Assembly: GCA_020444545.1 (NCBI GenBank)
Contig: JAHLKT010000001.1
Location: 372,001-436,000, forward strand
Length of the DNA: 64,000 nt
Source of the DNA: Desulfarculaceae bacterium
GTDB taxonomy: Bacteria; Desulfobacterota; Desulfarculia; Desulfarculales; Desulfarculaceae
Direction: 5' to 3'
Shown here piece by piece: positions 17,531 to 64,000 of the stretch. How positions within the stretch are numbered: position 1 is the stretch's first letter; every line of letters begins with the position of its first letter. The position numbers and the translations under genes are program-made. A model generated the notes under the pieces. That model did not search any database and had not been told where the DNA came from. It worked only from the letters and a program-made list of their open reading frames with translations.

Positions 17531-18955
17531 CTAGCCCTCTTGGGCCATGGCCTGGAGCTGGTCCCACAGGGCCATGATCTGGGCCTCGGTTTGCTCTGGC
17601 GCGCCGTCGTTGTCCACCACCAGGTCGGCGAAGCCCCTCTTCTGCTCCATGCCCAACTGGTTGGCGATGATCTGCCGGGCTTCCTCTTGGCTTATGCCGT
17701 CGCGGGACATGAGCCGCGCCACCTGGGTCTCGGGGGAGACCACCACCACCAGTATCTGCTCGAACAGATACATGAGGTTCAGCTCCACCAACAGCGGCAC
17801 GTCCACGATGATCACCCCTTGCGGGTCGCGGGCGGTTATCTCCTGGAGCTGGGCAAAAAACTCCTCGTAGATGCGCGGGTGGGTGAAGCTCTCCAGCTTT
17901 TTGCGCTTCTCCAGATCCGAGAACACGATGGCCGAGACCTTTTTGCGGTCCAGGCCGCCGTCCTCGCCCAGCACCTGCTTGCCGAAGTAATCCACGATCT
18001 CATCGAAGGCGGGCCGGCCCGGCTCCACCACCTGGCGGGCGATGAGGTCGAAGTCGATGAGGTGCGCCCCCAGCTCCACCAGACGCCGCGACACGGTGCT
18101 CTTGCCGCTGGCGATGCTGCCGGTGAGGCCCACGATCACCCCGTGGGGCATGCCGCGCACCTTGGTGAGCATCTCTTCCAGGCGCGTATAGGACACCGGC
18201 AGGGTGGCGGTGATGTCGCCCTCCACCCCGGAATAGCTGATGGGATAGCGCACCCCCCGGCGGTAGAGGCTCTCCAGCCCGGCCAGGGCCTTGGGCATCA
18301 GGCGGGCGGGCAGGGCCATGACCATCTCGTCGTCCTGGGCGTGGCCGTAGCGCCGCTCGCCGTAGCAGGGGATGCTCAGGGAGGGCTTGTCGTCCAAATA
18401 GCAGCGGGCGATGGCGTCCGAGCAAGAGGACTCACCCACGCAGGAGAAATTCATCACCTGGTAGTCCTCGAACTGCAACGCATTTATAAGCAGGATCATC
18501 TGGGCCGGGTTGCCGTAGATCAAGACGATCTCCGGCTCAAAGGGCTCGTACACCAGCGGGGCCAGGGCCACCGCCTGGTAGCGTTGGGTGGGCAGGCGGG
18601 GGATGGCCTCTTCGTAGCGGCGGCCGTCCTTTTTGGTGGCCACCCACACGATGCTGCGGAAGGTGCCGTCGCGGTGATACTCGGGCAGATCCCGGAGGCC
18701 CAGGATGGAGGGGCAGGCCGCGAAGACGAAGTCGTCCAGGTCCGCCCCCACGCTCCAGTCGAAGTTCCGCACCAGGCTGATGAGCTGGCACAGGCTCATC
18801 TTGTGCTCCGGCCGCCGCAAGAAAGGAATGCGGCCCAGCTCTTCCCTATCCTCCAGCATCTTGAAGGCCACGGGGAAGCTCTTGAGGCGCAGCAGTTGCT
18901 CCATGCGGCGCACCAGCTTGGTCCATTGGCCTTTGGGCATATCGGGCATGTTCAC
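17531..18955 (-). CDS. DUF169 - dephospho-CoA kinase (CoaE) fusion protein
   Basis: 474 residues in one uninterrupted frame. Residues ~5-265 are a DUF169 domain (COG2043 type) with YGNPAQMILLINALQ, a Cys-containing ESSCSDAIA, SIPCYGERR and AQDDEMVMALP; the same blocks appear in the DUF169 protein at 20620-21393. Residues ~273-470 are a whole CoaE domain: Walker A GLTGSIASGKST (~277-287), then LIDFDLIARQVVEPG, FTHPRIY and VVDVPLLVE. CoaE phosphorylates the ribose 3'-OH of dephospho-CoA in the last step of CoA synthesis. GTG 18955 overlaps the upstream stop (GTGA); ATG 18949 is an alternative. Whether this serves general CoA synthesis or a dedicated role is not known. Confidence 0.88.
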   Translation of the reverse strand: MNMPDMPKGQWTKLVRRMEQLLRLKSFPVAFKMLEDREELGRIPFLRRPEHKMSLCQLISLVRNFDWSVGADLDDFVFAACPSILGLRDLPEYHRDGTFRSIVWVATKKDGRRYEEAIPRLPTQRYQAVALAPLVYEPFEPEIVLIYGNPAQMILLINALQFEDYQVMNFSCVGESSCSDAIARCYLDDKPSLSIPCYGERRYGHAQDDEMVMALPARLMPKALAGLESLYRRGVRYPISYSGVEGDITATLPVSYTRLEEMLTKVRGMPHGVIVGLTGSIASGKSTVSRRLVELGAHLIDFDLIARQVVEPGRPAFDEIVDYFGKQVLGEDGGLDRKKVSAIVFSDLEKRKKLESFTHPRIYEEFFAQLQEITARDPQGVIIVDVPLLVELNLMYLFEQILVVVVSPETQVARLMSRDGISQEEARQIIANQLGMEQKRGFADLVVDNDGAPEQTEAQIMALWDQLQAMAQEG

Positions 18956-20619: not shown

Positions 20620-21393
20620 TTACTCGCTGGCCTCCAGGTCCTTCATCAGGGCCTGATAGGTGTCGGGCATCTCGGTGTGGAAGCGCAGGTAGGGAGTCAC
20701 CGGGTAGCGCAGGCCCGCCTTGGCGGTGGCCTCCAGGCCGCTGAGCACCTTGTCCAGCTCCCCGGCGGGTATGGCGAAGGCCATCTCGTCGTCCTGGGCC
20801 ATGGCGAAGATGCGGTCCCCGGCCCCGCAGGGCACCAGCTGGCACTGGCCGCTGATGAGCGCCTGGGAAACGTAGGTGGCGCAACCGATGCCGCCCAGAG
20901 CGGTGAAGCTGATGGCCTTGCCGGTGTGGTGCACCAGGGCCTGCACCATGCGCACCATCTGGGCCGGGTTGCCGAAGACCAGCACCAGCTGGGGCTCCCA
21001 GTCCACCTGCTCCAGGGGGGCCACGATGAAGCGGGTCCCTTGGCCGTGGGGCAGCTTGGGGATATCCTCGGCCACCACCGCGCGGGCCGCGTCCGAGCAG
21101 ACCCAGTTGGGCACCCCGGTGTGTCCCTCCAGGAAGCCCTCGCTGGCGGGCACGAAACCCAGGGCCACCGCGCCCAGGGGGCACACCATGTCCTCGGGCT
21201 CCAGCATCACCTTCCAGCCGTAGCGCCGGGCCAGGGTTATGGCCTGGCACACCAGCATGGGACTGCGCCGTCCCTCCAGCTTCACGAAGTCCGGGGGCAG
21301 CTGGTCTTCCGGACCCAGGACGCTCAGGCCCACCGGATAGGTGGCTGGGCGCAGAAAATGGGTAAGCTTTTGTTCGACCTGTTTGGCTTCCAT
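20620..21393 (-). CDS. DUF169 family protein
   Basis: 257 residues from ATG 21393 (GGAG about ten bases upstream; the open extension to 21513 crosses the divergent promoter region). Family blocks: GRRSPMLVCQAITLARRYG, DMVCPLGAVALGF, LVLVFGNPAQMVRMVQAL, GGIGCATYVSQAL, LVPCGAGDR and AQDDEMAFAIPAGEL. DUF169 (COG2043) is common in strict anaerobes and archaea and is uncharacterised; it contains conserved Cys that could bind metal or carry a thioester. It is the first gene of the operon and shares its GNPAQM, PCxGxR and AQDDEM motifs with the N-terminal half of the CoaE fusion. Confidence 0.9.
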   Translation of the reverse strand: MEAKQVEQKLTHFLRPATYPVGLSVLGPEDQLPPDFVKLEGRRSPMLVCQAITLARRYGWKVMLEPEDMVCPLGAVALGFVPASEGFLEGHTGVPNWVCSDAARAVVAEDIPKLPHGQGTRFIVAPLEQVDWEPQLVLVFGNPAQMVRMVQALVHHTGKAISFTALGGIGCATYVSQALISGQCQLVPCGAGDRIFAMAQDDEMAFAIPAGELDKVLSGLEATAKAGLRYPVTPYLRFHTEMPDTYQALMKDLEASE

Positions 21394-21445
21394 GGCGGGA
21401 TCTCCGGCCCGAGAGGCTTGGCGGGCTTGCCTCCGGGCTTCCGAG

Positions 21446-21458
21446 GTGATTAAATCAC
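21446..21458. promoter_or_regulatory. 13-nt perfect palindrome in divergent promoter region
   Basis: GTGATT-A-AATCAC lies almost exactly midway between the DUF169 start (21393) and the molybdoenzyme start (21512), 53 nt from each. It resembles Crp/Fnr half-sites but with a 3-nt spacer instead of 4, so the binding protein is not assigned. Confidence 0.5.
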
Positions 21459-21511
21459 TACATTTCGCCGGAATTATAACTCCTGGGGACCACGAGAGGA
21501 AGCATAAGGGC

Positions 21512-23587
21512 ATGGCAGGGCCGATTCAGGAGATCAAAACCCACTGCTCCTATATGGATCACGGGGGCTGCGGGATTATCGCGACGGTTGAGGACGGGCG
21601 TATCACCAAGATAAAGCCCGACCCGGACGGCTGGCTCAACCAGGGCTACGCCTGCCCCAAGGGCCTCAACGCCCACCACCGCCTGTATCACCCCCAGCGC
21701 CTCAGGCATCCCCTGCGGCGCAAGGGCCCACGCGGCTCGGGGCAGTGGGAGCGCATCTCCTGGGACGAGGCCCTGAGCCAAATCGCCGAGGGCCTGGACG
21801 CCATCCGGCAAAAGGACGGGGCCCGCGCGGTGGCCTTTGCCCTGGGCATGCCCAAGGGCCTGGACCACTTCGCCATGATCCGCCTGGCCAACACCTTCGG
21901 CTCGCCCAACCTGGTGGCCAACCAGGACGTGTGCCACGCTCCCCGCGAGATCACCGGAGTGCACACCTGCGGCTTCTACCCGGTGGTGGATTACAAGCAG
22001 CCCAGCGAGCTGGTGGTGCTCTGGGCCTCCAACCCCCTGGCCACCCACGAGGAAGGCGGCATCGGCTCCCAGCTCACGGCCCGCCTCAAGGCGGGCAGCC
22101 GTTTGATGGTCATCGACCCGCACCGGAGCGAGCTGGCCGAAAAGGCCGAGCTGCACCTCCAGCTGCGGCCGGGCAGCGACGCGGCCCTGGCCTTGGGCAT
22201 GCTCAACGTAATCATCGCGGAAAAGCTCTACGACGAGGCTTTCGTGGCCGAGCACACCCACGGCTTTGCCGAGCTGGCCGAGGCGGTGGCCGAGTTCACC
22301 CCAACCCGGGTGGGCGAGATAACCTGGCTGGAACCCGCGCAAATCCAGCAGGCGGCCCGGCTCTACGCCTCGGCCAAGCCCGCGGCCCTGGCCTGGGGCA
22401 ACCCCATCGAGCACACCAACCACGCCTTTTCCGCCGCCCGCGCCCTGGTCTGCCTCATGGCCCTGAGCGGCAACCTGGATGTGCCCGGAGGCAACATCGC
22501 GCCCCTGGAGCCGCCCATCGCCGGGCTGGGTGCTTTCGTGCGGGCCGACCTGGTGCCCGACAAGCGCACCGCGATGCTCAGCGCGGCCCACGGGGTGATC
22601 CCCCGCTTCATGACCATCCCCCCGGCCTATCTGCGCCGCGCGGTCTTGGAAGGCGAGCCCTACCCGGTCAAGGGCATGTTCTTTTTCGACACCAACCCGC
22701 TCATGGTCTGGGCCGACAGCCGCCGGGCCAAAGAGGCCCTGGAGCGCCTGGAGTTTTTGGCCTGCGCCGAGCTGTACCTGACCCCCAGCGCGGCTCTGTG
22801 TGACGTGGTGCTGCCCTCGGCGGCCAGCCTGGAGTTCGACGACATCGGCCACTACGGCCTGGGCCACGGCTACATCCTGGCCCGCCCCCAGGTGGTGGAT
22901 CCGCCCGCCGAGTGCCGCCCGCCCGCCCAGATCTGCTGCGACCTGGGCCGCCGCCTGGCCGGAGAGGAGCTGTGGCCCGAGGACTACCGCGCGCTCAACC
23001 AGATGGTGCTGGAGCCCAGCGGCCTGAGCTGGGAGGAGTTCGCGGCCAAGGGGCACTTGCAGGGGCCGCCCAAGTTCGAGAAGTTCCGCGCCAAGGGCTT
23101 CCGCACCGCCAGCGGCAAGGTGGAGCTCATGCTCTCCACCGCCGCCAAGTTCGGCCTGCCGCCCCTGCCCGCGTGGGAGGGCTTCCCCGAGGAGACCAGC
23201 GAGGCGTTCCCCCTGGTGCTCACCGGGCGCAAGAAGCTCACCGCCCTGCATTCATCCTATCGCTGGGTGGATGAGCTGCGGGCCCGCGACCCCGAGCCGG
23301 TCATGGAGATGCACCCGGCCGACGCCGAGGCCCGGGGCATCAACCAGGGCGACGAGGTAATCATCAGCACCCGGGCGGGGAGCATCGCGCAGAAGGCGCG
23401 GCTCAGCGAGAGGGTGCTGCCCGGCACGGTCTACGCGGAGCACGGCTGGTGGTTCCCCGAGGACGACGACCCCCTGGGCGGCTGGGACAGGAGCAACTTC
23501 AACCTGCTGACCAGCGCGGACAAGCTGGGCCGCGAGTTCGGCACCCCCAACCTGGCGGCCATCCCCTGTCAGGTGGAGCCAAAGTAA
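21512..23587 (+). CDS. Molybdopterin-dependent oxidoreductase-family enzyme, atypical (acetylene hydratase-like features)
   Basis: 691 residues, DMSO-reductase superfamily, with the domain order Fe-S (1-60), molybdopterin domains (~60-570) and dinucleotide-binding C-terminal domain (~570-690, VMEMHPADAEARGINQGDEV). The N-terminal cluster motif is C12-S-Y-M15-D16-H-G-G-C20 ... C48, with Met where the second cluster Cys usually is. C141 (NQDVCHAPRE) is at the Mo/W ligand position. No signal peptide, so cytoplasmic. No small Fe-S or membrane subunit is adjacent, which suggests a redox-neutral or electron-partner-free reaction as in acetylene hydratase. ATG 21512 is preceded by AGAGGA. The substrate is unknown. 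Confidence 0.85.
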   Translation: MAGPIQEIKTHCSYMDHGGCGIIATVEDGRITKIKPDPDGWLNQGYACPKGLNAHHRLYHPQRLRHPLRRKGPRGSGQWERISWDEALSQIAEGLDAIRQKDGARAVAFALGMPKGLDHFAMIRLANTFGSPNLVANQDVCHAPREITGVHTCGFYPVVDYKQPSELVVLWASNPLATHEEGGIGSQLTARLKAGSRLMVIDPHRSELAEKAELHLQLRPGSDAALALGMLNVIIAEKLYDEAFVAEHTHGFAELAEAVAEFTPTRVGEITWLEPAQIQQAARLYASAKPAALAWGNPIEHTNHAFSAARALVCLMALSGNLDVPGGNIAPLEPPIAGLGAFVRADLVPDKRTAMLSAAHGVIPRFMTIPPAYLRRAVLEGEPYPVKGMFFFDTNPLMVWADSRRAKEALERLEFLACAELYLTPSAALCDVVLPSAASLEFDDIGHYGLGHGYILARPQVVDPPAECRPPAQICCDLGRRLAGEELWPEDYRALNQMVLEPSGLSWEEFAAKGHLQGPPKFEKFRAKGFRTASGKVELMLSTAAKFGLPPLPAWEGFPEETSEAFPLVLTGRKKLTALHSSYRWVDELRARDPEPVMEMHPADAEARGINQGDEVIISTRAGSIAQKARLSERVLPGTVYAEHGWWFPEDDDPLGGWDRSNFNLLTSADKLGREFGTPNLAAIPCQVEPK

Positions 23588-23730: not shown

Positions 23731-23753
23731 GACGATAATAAATGGAGGCCAAG

Positions 23754-24119
23754 GTGGAAAAGGTTTTGATCGTGGGATGCAAGCGGGCCATGGACGATGT
23801 CTGCATCGGTTGCTCGCGCTGCCTGGTGGCCTTCAACCGGCGCGAAGGGGTCTTCGAGATTTACGAGGACAGCCCGGCCCAGGTGATGGGCCTGTTGTCT
23901 TGCGGCGACTGCCCCGGGGCCACCATCGTGACCCGCCTGGCCCAGGTGAGCCTTTGGAACAAGCCCCTGGAGGAAAAGCCCACCGTGGTCCACGTGGCCC
24001 CCTGCATCACCGACCACTGTCCCCACGCCGAGACCATCCTCAAGAAGATCAAGGCCAAGGCCGGGGTGCGGGTGATCGAGGGAACCCACCCCTACATGCC
24101 CAGCGACATATTCGCCTGA
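23754..24119 (+). CDS. CGGC-domain (predicted metal-binding) protein
   Basis: 121 residues. Cys pairs are spread along the chain: IVGCKRAMDDVCIGCSRC, GLLSCGDCPGAT and VAPCITDHCPHAE, the arrangement of the CGGC domain, with the closing EGTHPY. The domain is predicted to bind metal; function unknown. I prefer GTG 23754 because GGAGG lies five bases before it, whereas the upstream ATG 23742 overlaps that SD. Same strand as the molybdoenzyme with a 166-nt gap containing two hairpins, so linkage to that gene is suggestive only. Confidence 0.85.
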   Translation: MEKVLIVGCKRAMDDVCIGCSRCLVAFNRREGVFEIYEDSPAQVMGLLSCGDCPGATIVTRLAQVSLWNKPLEEKPTVVHVAPCITDHCPHAETILKKIKAKAGVRVIEGTHPYMPSDIFA

Positions 24120-24132
24120 GGGCCCGCCGCGC

Positions 24133-24879
24133 CTACTCCTCCAGGGTGAACTTCCAGGCGCAGTACCATTCGTCCGGATGATCCGGCGGGCAGCCCACGC
24201 AGGTGGTGGTGATGCGCTCGTCGATGGAGCTGGCGAAGGAGGGATACTCCACGTTGCCCACCGAGTGGCAGGGGTAGTCGTCCAGACCCTGGCGCTTGCG
24301 GGCCGACTGCACCCGGCAGTCGTTCATCTGGAAGATGAAGCTGTGCTCGTCCACCTCGTGGATGGACTGCTTGTTGAGTAGCGAGTAGTTGCGGAAGTTC
24401 AGCGCCTGCTTGAGGCCCGCCAGACCGGGGCGCTCGCCCAGGCCCAGGAACTGCTTGATGTTGTAGGCCTCGTGGGGGCTCAGGCGGGCCCAGCACAGAT
24501 CGTTGGCCCGCTTGGCGTAGTCCATGCTCCGGTCGCGCTCCACCTGCTGGAACCAGATCCCGTCGGTGACCAGCCAGTTGGCCGCCGAGGCGGTGGCCAG
24601 CTCGACCAGCTCGTCCGGGCTCATTTGCCTCAGCCGCGCGGGCACGCCGTCCTTATCCACTTCGAAGCCCAGGAGCTTGCCCAAGCGTTTCATCTGATAA
24701 GCGAGGTTGGTGCGGAACACGGCGGCGTCGGCGGCCAGGGCGGCGGGCAGCCCCTCCTGGTGCTCCACCTCGCGGAACCACAGGCCGTAGTGGATCAGGT
24801 TGCGGTGAAAGGTCTCCAATACGAACCACACCAGGTCTTCCTGGGACAGCTCCCGCACGTCTTGCGCGTCCTTGGGCAT
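24133..24879 (-). CDS. DUF6125 family protein
   Basis: 248 residues. It has the pattern of a Desulfobacterota family I recall as DUF6125: two similar helical segments each with a GLWF or GIWFxxVE motif (NLIHYGLWFREVEHQEGL and NWLVTDGIWFQQVERDRS), then a C-terminal Cys region with NDCRVQSARKRQGL, DYPCHSVGNVEYPSF, TCVGCPPD and WYCAWKFTLEE. Five Cys in the last 70 residues suggest metal binding. AAGGAGGAG precedes ATG 24879 by six to seven bases; the much longer open frame to 25497 is antisense to the TetR gene and not used. It is divergent from that TetR gene, a plausible regulator. Confidence 0.8.
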   Translation of the reverse strand: MPKDAQDVRELSQEDLVWFVLETFHRNLIHYGLWFREVEHQEGLPAALAADAAVFRTNLAYQMKRLGKLLGFEVDKDGVPARLRQMSPDELVELATASAANWLVTDGIWFQQVERDRSMDYAKRANDLCWARLSPHEAYNIKQFLGLGERPGLAGLKQALNFRNYSLLNKQSIHEVDEHSFIFQMNDCRVQSARKRQGLDDYPCHSVGNVEYPSFASSIDERITTTCVGCPPDHPDEWYCAWKFTLEE

Positions 24880-24957
24880 GGGCTCCTCCTTGGCTGCAAT
24901 GGGCGGCCCATTGTAACCCAAGCGCGCCCGCCTGTCTAAACCCCAAGGCCCGGCCGG

Positions 24958-26113: not shown

Positions 26114-26443
26114 TCACGCCTCCAGGAGGCGCCTCATCAAGAGGGCCTGCATGTCCCGCCGCCCGTCGGCGATGAGCATCACGTAGACCCGGCTATCCAA
26201 CACTTGATAGATGATGCGGTAGGGCTTGAAAAATATCTCGCGGTACTGCTTGATGCCCAAGGCTAGCAGCTCTTTGGGATAGGCCCCCCGGTTGGGCGAC
26301 TGGCTCAGCCGGTCAAAGGCCTTTTCTATTTTTCCCAACACATACTCCGCCCGCTCCGGGGCGTCGTGGCGGGCAATGTAATCGTAAAGCTGCTCCAGGT
26401 CCCGGGCCGCGTCCTCGGTCAGGAATACTTGATGGGTCATCAA
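26114..26443 (-). CDS. RelE/ParE-superfamily toxin
   Basis: 109 residues with the ParE/RelE plasmid-stabilisation pattern: VFLTEDAARDLEQLYDYIARHD, YVLGKIEKAFDRLSQSPNRG, YREIFFKPYRIIYQVLDSRVYVMLIADGRRD. Members are either mRNA interferases (RelE) or gyrase poisons (ParE); the YRIIY...V.I.AD.R layout leans to ParE or YafQ-like, not decidable here. It overlaps the antitoxin gene by 4 nt, antitoxin first, the normal type II toxin-antitoxin order. Confidence 0.9.
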   Translation of the reverse strand: MMTHQVFLTEDAARDLEQLYDYIARHDAPERAEYVLGKIEKAFDRLSQSPNRGAYPKELLALGIKQYREIFFKPYRIIYQVLDSRVYVMLIADGRRDMQALLMRRLLEA

Positions 26444-26715
26444 GCTTCCCGCCGACCCCGGCGCAGGCGCTCCACCACCTCCCCGGCGGGGCGCACCCTG
26501 CCTTGCTCTATCTGGCGGTTGCCCAGGGCCAGAATCTTCAGTAGGGCCAGGGTCTCCTGGGTCTGCTCATAGGAAGCGATGTCCTGCATCACCGCCTTGG
26601 CCTCGCCGTTCTGGGTGATGATCAGGGGCTCGTCCTGCTCGCCAAGGGTGCGCACGATCTCCGCCGCGTGGGCCTTGAGAAAGCTTATGGGTTTGATCTG
26701 GCGGGAAGCCTTCAT
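26440..26715 (-). CDS. Phd/YefM-family antitoxin
   Basis: 91 residues. The N-terminal domain KASRQIKPISFLKAHAAEIVRTL, followed by PLIITQNGEAKAVMQDIASYEQTQETLALLKIL, is typical of Phd/YefM: a DNA-binding dimer domain and a disordered toxin-neutralising tail. AGGAGG lies about seven bases before the ATG. The 4-nt overlap with the toxin gene implies coupled translation, and the antitoxin is expected to repress its own promoter, which would lie around 26716-26780. Confidence 0.9.
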   Translation of the reverse strand: MKASRQIKPISFLKAHAAEIVRTLGEQDEPLIITQNGEAKAVMQDIASYEQTQETLALLKILALGNRQIEQGRVRPAGEVVERLRRGRREA

Positions 26716-61357: not shown

Positions 61358-64000
61358 ATGGCTGAATCCAAGCTCAAACTCAACGGCACAGAGGTGGAGT
61401 TCGCGCCCGGCGAGACCTTGTTGCAGGTCGCCGAACGTAACGGCGTGGATATACCCACCTTGTGCTACCTCAAGGACTGCACCCCCACCGGCGCCTGCCG
61501 CATGTGCGTGGTGGAGGTTAAAGGGGCCCGCACCCTGGTGGCCTCCTGCGCCATGCCCGCCGGCAACGGCATGGAGGTGCAGACCGATACCGAGAAGGTG
61601 CGCACCGCCCGCCGCTTGGCGGTGGAGCTGCTCCTTTCTTCGGGCCACCACAACTGCCTGGTCTGCGAGGCCAACGGCGAGTGTAAGCTCCAGGCCCTGG
61701 CCTACGAGTACGGGGTGGACGCCGTCCGTTTCTCGCCCCCGGCCGAAACCTATCCCATTGAAGACGACAACCCGCTGATCACCCGGGACTTCTCCAAGTG
61801 CATCCTCTGCGGCCGCTGTGTGCAGGCCTGCAACGAGGTGCAGGTGAACCGGGCCATCGGCTTCGGGTATCGCGGGGCCGAGGCCAAGATCGTCACCACC
61901 GGCGACCGGCCCTACGACCAGAGCGACTGCGTGTTCTGCGGCCAGTGCGTGCAGGCCTGCCCGGTGGGGGCGCTCACCGAGAAGAAGGCCAAGGGCAAGG
62001 GCCGCTCCTGGGAGACCAAGAAGGTGCGCACCACCTGCCCCTACTGCGGGGTGGGCTGCCAGCTCTGGCTGCACGTGAAGGACAACCAGATCATCAAGGT
62101 CACTGCCGTGGAGGACGCTCAGCCCAACCGGGGCCGTTTGTGCGTGAAGGGCCGCTTCGGCTACGACTTCATCCACAGCCCCGAGCGCCTGACCACGCCG
62201 CTGATCAAGGAGAACGGCGAGTTCCGCGAGGCGAGCTGGGACGAGGCCCTGGACCTGGTGGCCGAGCGCTTCATGGAGATAAAGAAGGAGCACGGTCCCG
62301 ACTCCATCGCCGGGGTCAGCTGCGCGCGCAGCACCAACGAAGACTCCTATAACATGCAGAAACTCTTCCGCGCGGTGATCGGTACGAACAACATCGATCA
62401 CTGCGCACGAACCTGACACGCTCCCACTGTCGCCGGTCTGGCGACTTCTTTCGGCTCCGGGGCCATGACCAACAGCTTTGCCGACTTTGACAAGGCCAAG
62501 ATGTTCTTCATCATCGGCTCCAACATGACCGAGGCCCACCCCGTGGCGGCCACGTTCGTGAAGAACGCGGTAAACAACGGGGCCAAGATGATCCTGGTGG
62601 ACCCCCGGCGCACCGCGCTGGCGGAGTTTGCCACCATGCACCTGCCCCTCAAGGTGGGCAGCGACATCGCCCTGTTGAACGGGCTGATGCACGTGCTCAT
62701 CAAAGAGGACCTCTACGACAAGGAATACGTGAAGAGCTGCACCGTGGGCTTCGAGGAGCTCAAGGCCGCGGTGGAGAACTACCCGCCCGAGCGGGCGGAG
62801 GAGATCAGCGGCATCCCGGCGGAGACCATCGTGGAGGTGGCCCGCCTGATGGCCGCCAACAAGCCGGCCATGCTCATGTACACCTTGGGCATCACCGAGC
62901 ACACCTGCGGCGTGAACAACGTGATGTCCTGCGCCAACTTCCAGATGCTTCTGGGCAACGTGGGCTTCGAGTGCGGCGGCGTGAACCCGCTGCGCGGCCA
63001 GAACAACGTGCAGGGGGCCTGCGACATGGGCGCGCTGCCCAACGTGTACCCCGGCTACCAGAAGGTCACCGACCCCGACGCCAAGGCCAAGTTCGAGAAG
63101 GCCTGGGGCGTGGAATTGGACGACAAGCTGGGCATGATGATGCCGGCCATGTTCGACGGCCTGGGCGACGGCAAGGTCAAGGGCATGTACATCTTCGGCG
63201 AGAACGTGGCCAACACCGAACCGGACATCACCCATGTGGAGCACTGCATGGAGCACGCCGAGTTCATCGTGTGCAACGACATCTTCCATACCGAAACCAC
63301 CCGCTTCGCGGACGTGGTCTTGCCGGCCACGGCCTGGAGCGAGGACGACGGCACCTTCACCAACAGCGAGCGCCGGGTGAACCGGGTGCGCAAGGCGGTG
63401 GAGGCTCCCGGGGATGCCAAGCCCAACTGGTGGATCTTCAAGGAGATCGCCAAGCGCATGGGCCAGGAGTGGGAGTCGAACAGCGGCCAGGAGATCTGGG
63501 ACAACGAGGTATCCATGCTGGCCCCGTCCATGACCGGCATCAAGTTCAGCCGCATCGAGGGAGACGGCTTGCAGTGGCCGGTGCCCGACCTGGATCACCT
63601 GGGCACCCCGTTCCTGCACAAGGACGGCTGCTTCACCTGCGGGCTGGGCAACTTCAAGCCCGCCGAGTGGACCCCGCCGGCCGAGGTGCCGGACGAGGAG
63701 TACCCCCTGGTGCTCAGCACCGGGCGTAGGCTCTACCACTATCACACCCGCACCCAGACCGGGCGCAGCGGCGGGCTCAACGAGCTTTTGGGCGAGGAGA
63801 CGGCCGACATCTCCCTGGCCGACGCCAAAAAGCTGGGCATCGCCAACGGCGAGCGGGTGCGGCTCTCCTCGCGGCGCGGCTCCATCGAGCTCACCGCCAA
63901 GGTGACCCCCGAGGTGCAGGAAGGCATGGTGTGGATGGCCTTCCACTTCCGCGAGGCCTGCGCCAACTGGCTGACCAACGGGGTCTACGACCCGGTCTCC
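61358..64000 (+). CDS. fdhA: Selenocysteine-containing formate dehydrogenase, alpha subunit (3' end outside window)
   Basis: Oxidises formate or reduces CO2 at a Mo/W-bis-pterin site. Domains: a plant-type [2Fe-2S] domain (~1-80, first Cys C36), a His-Cys [4Fe-4S] segment (HHNCLVCEANGECKLQ), two [4Fe-4S] ferredoxin motifs (CILCGRCVQAC, CVFCGQCVQAC), then the catalytic part with C227-x2-C230-x3-C234 ... C262. An in-frame TGA at 62414-62416 is read as Sec353 in the context HCART-U-HAPTVAGL, matching FdhF-type enzymes, and is followed by a SECIS hairpin. The frame is open from there to the window end (881 residues). ATG 61358 has GGGAG six bases upstream. Confidence 0.95.
62429..62445 (+). promoter_or_regulatory. 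Bacterial SECIS element of fdhA
   Basis: GTCGCC-GGTCT-GGCGAC, a 6-bp perfect stem 12 nt after the UGA codon. The loop contains GGUCU, the loop sequence by which SelB recognises the E. coli fdhF SECIS. Needed for selenocysteine insertion at 62414-62416. Confidence 0.88.

Follow-up and report, generated by a model that had tools for sequence, protein, structure and literature searches.

The window, that is, the whole 64,000-nucleotide stretch of Desulfarculaceae DNA analysed here, carries a gene whose translation (21512-23587, + strand) is a protein of 691 aa, P0001. Three Pfam domains, Molybdop_Fe4S4, Molybdopterin and Molydop_binding, each scored above the gathering score, which places P0001 in the MopB (DMSO reductase) superfamily. 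The reading frame remained open upstream as far as 21341, and many orthologs begin near the ATG at 21512. Orthologs at 76-84% identity include Desulfarculaceae and Desulfarculus records. No signal sequence was found ahead of the cluster motif, either in P0001 or in the orthologs, and a cytoplasmic location is therefore presumed. Around the cluster, the sequence is T-H-C12-S-Y-M15-D16-H17-G-G-C20, with C48-P-K50 further along the chain. The usual, although not universal, four-Cys N-terminal [4Fe-4S] motif of the superfamily is broken in P0001, since the second Cys position is occupied by D16. An earlier sequence-only reading of this gene had drawn attention to C12, M15, D16, C20, C48 and C141, and the translation placed all of them as claimed (Table 1).

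Table 1. Position in the window of the enzyme gene and of the residues discussed in the text
Feature	Position	Strand	Basis
Mo/W-bis-MGD enzyme gene, acetylene hydratase (AH)-containing branch	21512..23587	+	Pfam, structure matches, tree
C12, first cluster ligand	21545..21547	+	invariant in 49/49 full-length members
M15	21554..21556	+	varies M/F/L/N/Q/W in family
D16, Asp at Cys-2 ligand position	21557..21559	+	alignment and HMM column
H17, at AH catalytic Asp13 if anchored on Cys-3	21560..21562	+	HMM, alignment
C20, cluster ligand	21569..21571	+	invariant (alignment)
C48 (last cluster ligand) to K50 (conserved Lys)	21653..21661	+	invariant (alignment)
C141-H142, presumed Mo/W thiolate ligand and next His	21932..21937	+	alignment; structure-sequence matches
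E180-E181, family-specific pair; E180 at AH Trp179	22049..22054	+	alignment
H447-Y448-G449; H447 and G449 family-specific; G449 at AH Trp472	22850..22858	+	alignment

The idea of a conserved operon was rejected, since in the 41 family loci every neighbour family was confined to six loci at most, and those loci came mainly from the window's own genus. The inspected neighbours are, we take it, unrelated housekeeping, flagellar, transport and other genes. Beside the enzyme gene, a divergent gene (20620-21513) encodes the second DUF169 protein of this region. The first is encoded at 17531-18955 (-), in one open frame with DUF169 on the N-terminal side and a dephospho-CoA kinase (CoaE) domain on the C-terminal side, which is either a fusion or two genes sharing one frame. 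Downstream lie genes for a CGGC-domain protein (23742-24119, +) and a DUF6125 protein (24133-24885, -); the DUF6125 family was near the enzyme gene in 6/41 loci, namely the window, four genus relatives and one genome of another family (L240). A ParE-type toxin and Phd/YefM antitoxin pair was found at 26114-26715 (-). Near the end of the window, a formate dehydrogenase-like frame (62018-63937, +) contains one in-frame TGA, probably encoding selenocysteine, and a second match of equal score is located on contig C5 of the genome.

The sequence-only reading took the motif as one with Met in place of a cluster Cys and with Asp after the third ligand position. The Asp in fact follows the second position (M15), and Met was rejected as the conserved replacement. 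In 51 distinct family sequences, a set collected by the motif itself from loci picked by similarity or pattern, position 15 varied (M 42, F 3, L 2, N 2, Q 1, W 1), while D16 was invariant. The C-x3-D-x3-C motif was present in 41/41 Desulfobacterota family members read, out of 64 places above 830 bits, and in all five Bacillota places read of the six found. Each family member read also retained the C-x3-D-H-G-G-C block.

The register of D16 was established with an HMM built from the 37 of 44 relatives that have C-x2-C-x3-C, of which 16 read C-x2-C-H-G-G-C. The HMM aligned D16 to the Cys-2 column in 51/51 family sequences, and the one-residue insertion of the family fell directly after C12. In the residue-column alignment, which held 49 of the 51 family sequences after two partial ones were dropped, the D16 column contained Asp in all 49 full-length members and Cys in all 43 relatives having a letter there. 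Thus, it is Cys-2 that has been replaced by Asp, and the one-residue insertion produces C-x3-D-x3-C. Some distant relatives (L028, L030) had other spacings between Cys-2 and Cys-3, so the spacing by itself is no proof of this alignment. The earlier view that the cluster motif is unusual was borne out, and for all family members read.

Sequencing error or a decayed gene was considered and rejected. The motif was the same in 51 distinct sequences, with Asp encoded by GAT in 29 and by GAC in 22, and the third codon positions were the most divergent from orthologs in the enzyme gene. The preservation of the motif throughout the family with both Asp codons in use indicated selection. C12, C20, C48 and K50 were invariant among the 49 full-length members; therefore, the cluster site is not decaying. 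As the sequence-only reading had proposed among its alternatives, an unusual [4Fe-4S] or [3Fe-4S] cluster is the best reading of the motif, and a 3-Cys/1-Asp [4Fe-4S] cluster, or else a [3Fe-4S] one, is likely.

The family was common in the host phylum. A profile of 11 orthologs (A1) was run against 395 genomes, with the best two candidates per genome scored. Scores above 830 bits came from 64 places, spread over 63 genomes or about one sixth of those sampled. The next score was 709 bits, and the 29 proteins read below this gap (L175-L203) had Cys where the family has Asp, most with C-x2-C-x3-C. The clade was also present, at 1090-1117 bits, in 5/199 genomes of the phylum of a Gracilibacter record (L100), which we take to be Bacillota. 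It was found in none of 500 genomes of two other phyla (0/201 for that of a Chloroflexi record and 0/299 for that of a Rhodospirillaceae record), where the three above-limit matches, at 601, 536 and 549 bits, all had Cys. A search of plasmids returned 19 records, every one below 60% identity, the best 10 of the 19 at 30-33%. One DNA-pattern match (L163) had no protein match to P0001 and was discarded as chance. The dsrA gene was found in 42/63 family genomes and 147/332 others (Fisher p 0.0014, ignoring kinship). Because this value ignores kinship, and because 21 family genomes are without dsrA, we claim no link to sulfate reduction.

Among solved structures, AH was the best match to P0001 in both sequence (8e-79 in one search; 375 bits vs 296 for the next in another) and fold, at an identity of 28-29%. 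The AlphaFold model of P0001 had a pLDDT of 86.5 and a pTM of 0.90, with a pLDDT of only 71 for residues 11-20. Foldseek gave AH a TM of 0.92 by query length, and fold comparison with AH (PDB 2e7z) gave a Z of 41.6 and an rmsd of 2.3 over 681 aligned residues, while the highest-scoring formate dehydrogenase reached a Z of 36.9. The first tree comprised 91 rows (26 family, 44 C-type, 8 own-genome, 10 others and 3 references). In it, the family formed a single clade (SH-aLRT 91) inside a 63-row branch that also contains AH (SH-aLRT 100), while the formate dehydrogenases fell outside this branch. A second tree, from which four long-branch rows and the N-terminal motif region were removed, retained the family (SH-aLRT 83), the AH-containing branch (95) and the grouping of the family with a CxxC sister group (96). 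The clade nests in the AH-containing branch, but AH itself is located in another sub-branch. The AH branch also contains a separate group (L051, L198, L249) without the first cluster Cys (GPGCH..C motif), which likewise seems to have just three cluster cysteines. Catechol dehydroxylases (Dadh, Hcdh and Cldh) are described as akin to AH (PMC7028382).

The landmarks of AH itself were mostly missing from the active site. AH residue numbers were taken from PMC12096430 and from a residue count along the printed chain, shifted by three, with Ile142 as the residue after Cys141. The columns of AH Ile142, Trp179 and Trp472 held H142, E180 and G449 in 49/49 members, and E146, E181, S173 and H447 were further residues found only in the family. 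Together these replacements make the pocket look more polar than that of AH. C141 shares a column with the AH tungsten ligand Cys141, as the sequence-only reading had it, but this Cys is also common to formate dehydrogenases and most relatives and is not specific to AH. The likeness to AH was supported in that AH is the closest solved structure. The match of D16 to the catalytic Asp13 found no support in the alignment anchored on Cys-3, which places Asp13 at H17. A true acetylene hydratase would account for the best sequence and fold match, yet the low identity, the differing pocket positions and the separate sub-branch make it very improbable.

The position of D16 relative to AH bears on what this residue does. 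AH is reported to have the motif C9-x2-C12-D13, with cluster ligands Cys9/12/16/46 and catalytic Asp13 (PMC12096430). P0001 departs from this ligand set, with D16 at the Cys12 position. According to the same source, Cys12 and one MGD share a bridging water, so the substituted corner may face the pterin. Asp13 corresponds to H17 when the alignment is anchored on Cys-3, as in the HMM, and to D16 when it is anchored on Cys-1. The latter register would suit a rival reading, in which D16 is not an iron ligand. A [3Fe-4S] cluster would sit on C12, C20 and C48, and the one-residue-longer loop would offer D16 to the Mo/W-bound water, like Asp13 of AH, for non-redox hydration, dehydration or isomerisation of a polar substrate. 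This arrangement would fit AH as the nearest structure and the lack of partner genes, and [3Fe-4S] clusters have been described for the IdrA/AioA line (PMC10100899). The HGGC flanks and the HMM, however, set D16 at Cys-2 and H17 at Asp13, and Ile142, Trp179 and Trp472 of AH were not retained. We therefore regard an unligated D16 as rather unlikely.

The absence of an adjacent redox partner, noted earlier for the window locus, held there and across the family loci. An Fe-S neighbour was defined as a gene on the same strand, no more than 1.5 kb away, that encodes a C-x2-C-x2-C-x3-C motif. By this definition, one was present in 1/41 family loci and in 9/20 loci of C-type relatives (Fisher p 8e-5; loci not independent), and all nine of the latter carried two motifs. 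Loci added later had such a neighbour in 0/4 for the family and 1/4 for the immediate CxxC sister group, giving pooled counts of 1/45 family loci vs 10/24 four-Cys relatives. Since the sister group was without an Fe-S neighbour in three of four loci, the loss of the partner cannot be attributed to the Asp change. The frequent two-cluster ferredoxin-type gene beside branch relatives implied that the ancestral reaction was probably redox. P0001 might still work by conventional redox chemistry, whether of the formate dehydrogenase kind or another, with a diffusible ferredoxin as its partner and the Asp doing no more than retune the cluster potential. C141-H142 corresponds to the Cys/Sec-His pair that formate dehydrogenases have at the metal, the CHAP string matches as well, and the ferredoxin-type neighbours of the relatives point the same way. 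On the other hand, the formate dehydrogenase model TIGR01591 gave 294.9 bits vs a cut-off of 666.25, no NCBIfam redox model reached its cut-off among the best 25 listed, the formate dehydrogenases lie outside the branch and no partner gene is present. An ordinary redox function thus deserves consideration as a minority possibility.

On balance, and with somewhat more confidence than doubt, we favour a single-subunit cytoplasmic enzyme with a 3-Cys/1-Asp cluster, a metal bound by C141 and no dedicated electron-transfer subunit. P0001 would be a Mo/W-bis-MGD enzyme of a distinct clade within the AH-containing branch of the superfamily. C12, D16, C20 and C48 would hold an N-terminal [4Fe-4S] cluster, probably easily interconverted with [3Fe-4S]. 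The Asp ligation would alter the cluster potential and possibly make iron loss ready. C141 would bind the metal in a pocket rebuilt with the polar residues H142, E146, E180/E181 and H447. The cluster may merely poise or stabilise the Mo/W site as in AH, or may trade electrons with a soluble carrier such as ferredoxin. We infer the binding of iron by D16, the cluster type, the identity of the metal and, at the protein level, the lack of a fixed redox partner. A non-redox reaction, also raised earlier, is conceivable for this enzyme. The cluster could be retained even then, because NarG requires its cluster before insertion of the Mo cofactor, and substitution of a Cys ligand of that cluster is reported to block insertion (PMC10609526).

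In the literature searched, with subscription papers mostly outside its coverage, we recognised no paper on a superfamily member whose N-terminal cluster has an Asp ligand, and none describing this clade. We suggest, as a tentative proposal, that the family is an undescribed and widespread class of stand-alone Mo/W-bis-MGD enzymes, with the first Asp-ligated N-terminal [4Fe-4S] of the superfamily and a reaction that is non-redox, of the hydration/dehydration type, or otherwise unknown. It is offered with the same reserve that the hosts are sulfate reducers and related anaerobes, and that the Asp lies at the corner facing the pterin in AH. AH is described as non-redox yet keeps redox cofactors, and its mechanism is without consensus (PMC12096430). 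A large natural family of the same branch with a Cys to Asp change and rare electron-transfer genes could help to show the role of the cluster, separating electron transfer, tuning of the metal site and maturation alone.

Among known systems, AH of Pelobacter acetylenicus resembles P0001 in its fold, its Cys metal ligand, the cluster motif preceding the bis-MGD domains and its tree branch. It differs in having four Cys cluster ligands, and Asp13, Ile142, Trp179 and Trp472 where P0001 has H17, H142, E180 and G449. The Cys/Sec formate dehydrogenases (8j83, 7vw6, 1fdi and 7qv7) share the fold, with Z up to 36.9, and 7qv7 has the same Cys-His with a CHAP string at the metal ligand; these enzymes differ in their four cluster Cys and in lying outside the branch. 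Asp-ligated [4Fe-4S] proteins of the ferredoxin kind have a fold unrelated to that of P0001 and no Mo/W cofactor. Asp-ligated [4Fe-4S] clusters are documented in Pyrococcus furiosus ferredoxin and others (PMC4432287), and in NsrR (PMC5411485). The P. furiosus ferredoxin would match P0001 in its three Cys and one Asp, provided that D16 ligates iron. Within the superfamily, the NarG-type enzymes also have one non-Cys N-terminal cluster ligand and x3/x3 spacing, the NarG motif being given as H-x3-C-x3-C in PMC8301774. The exceptional ligand there is His in the first position, whereas in P0001 it is Asp in the second, and NarG-type enzymes have NarH-type partner subunits, which the P0001 locus is without. 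Overall, the analysis points to a new cluster variant in the AH branch, and not to an acetylene hydratase; the fold is ordinary for the superfamily, but the change is consistent throughout the clade and affects a residue expected to be important for the cofactor.
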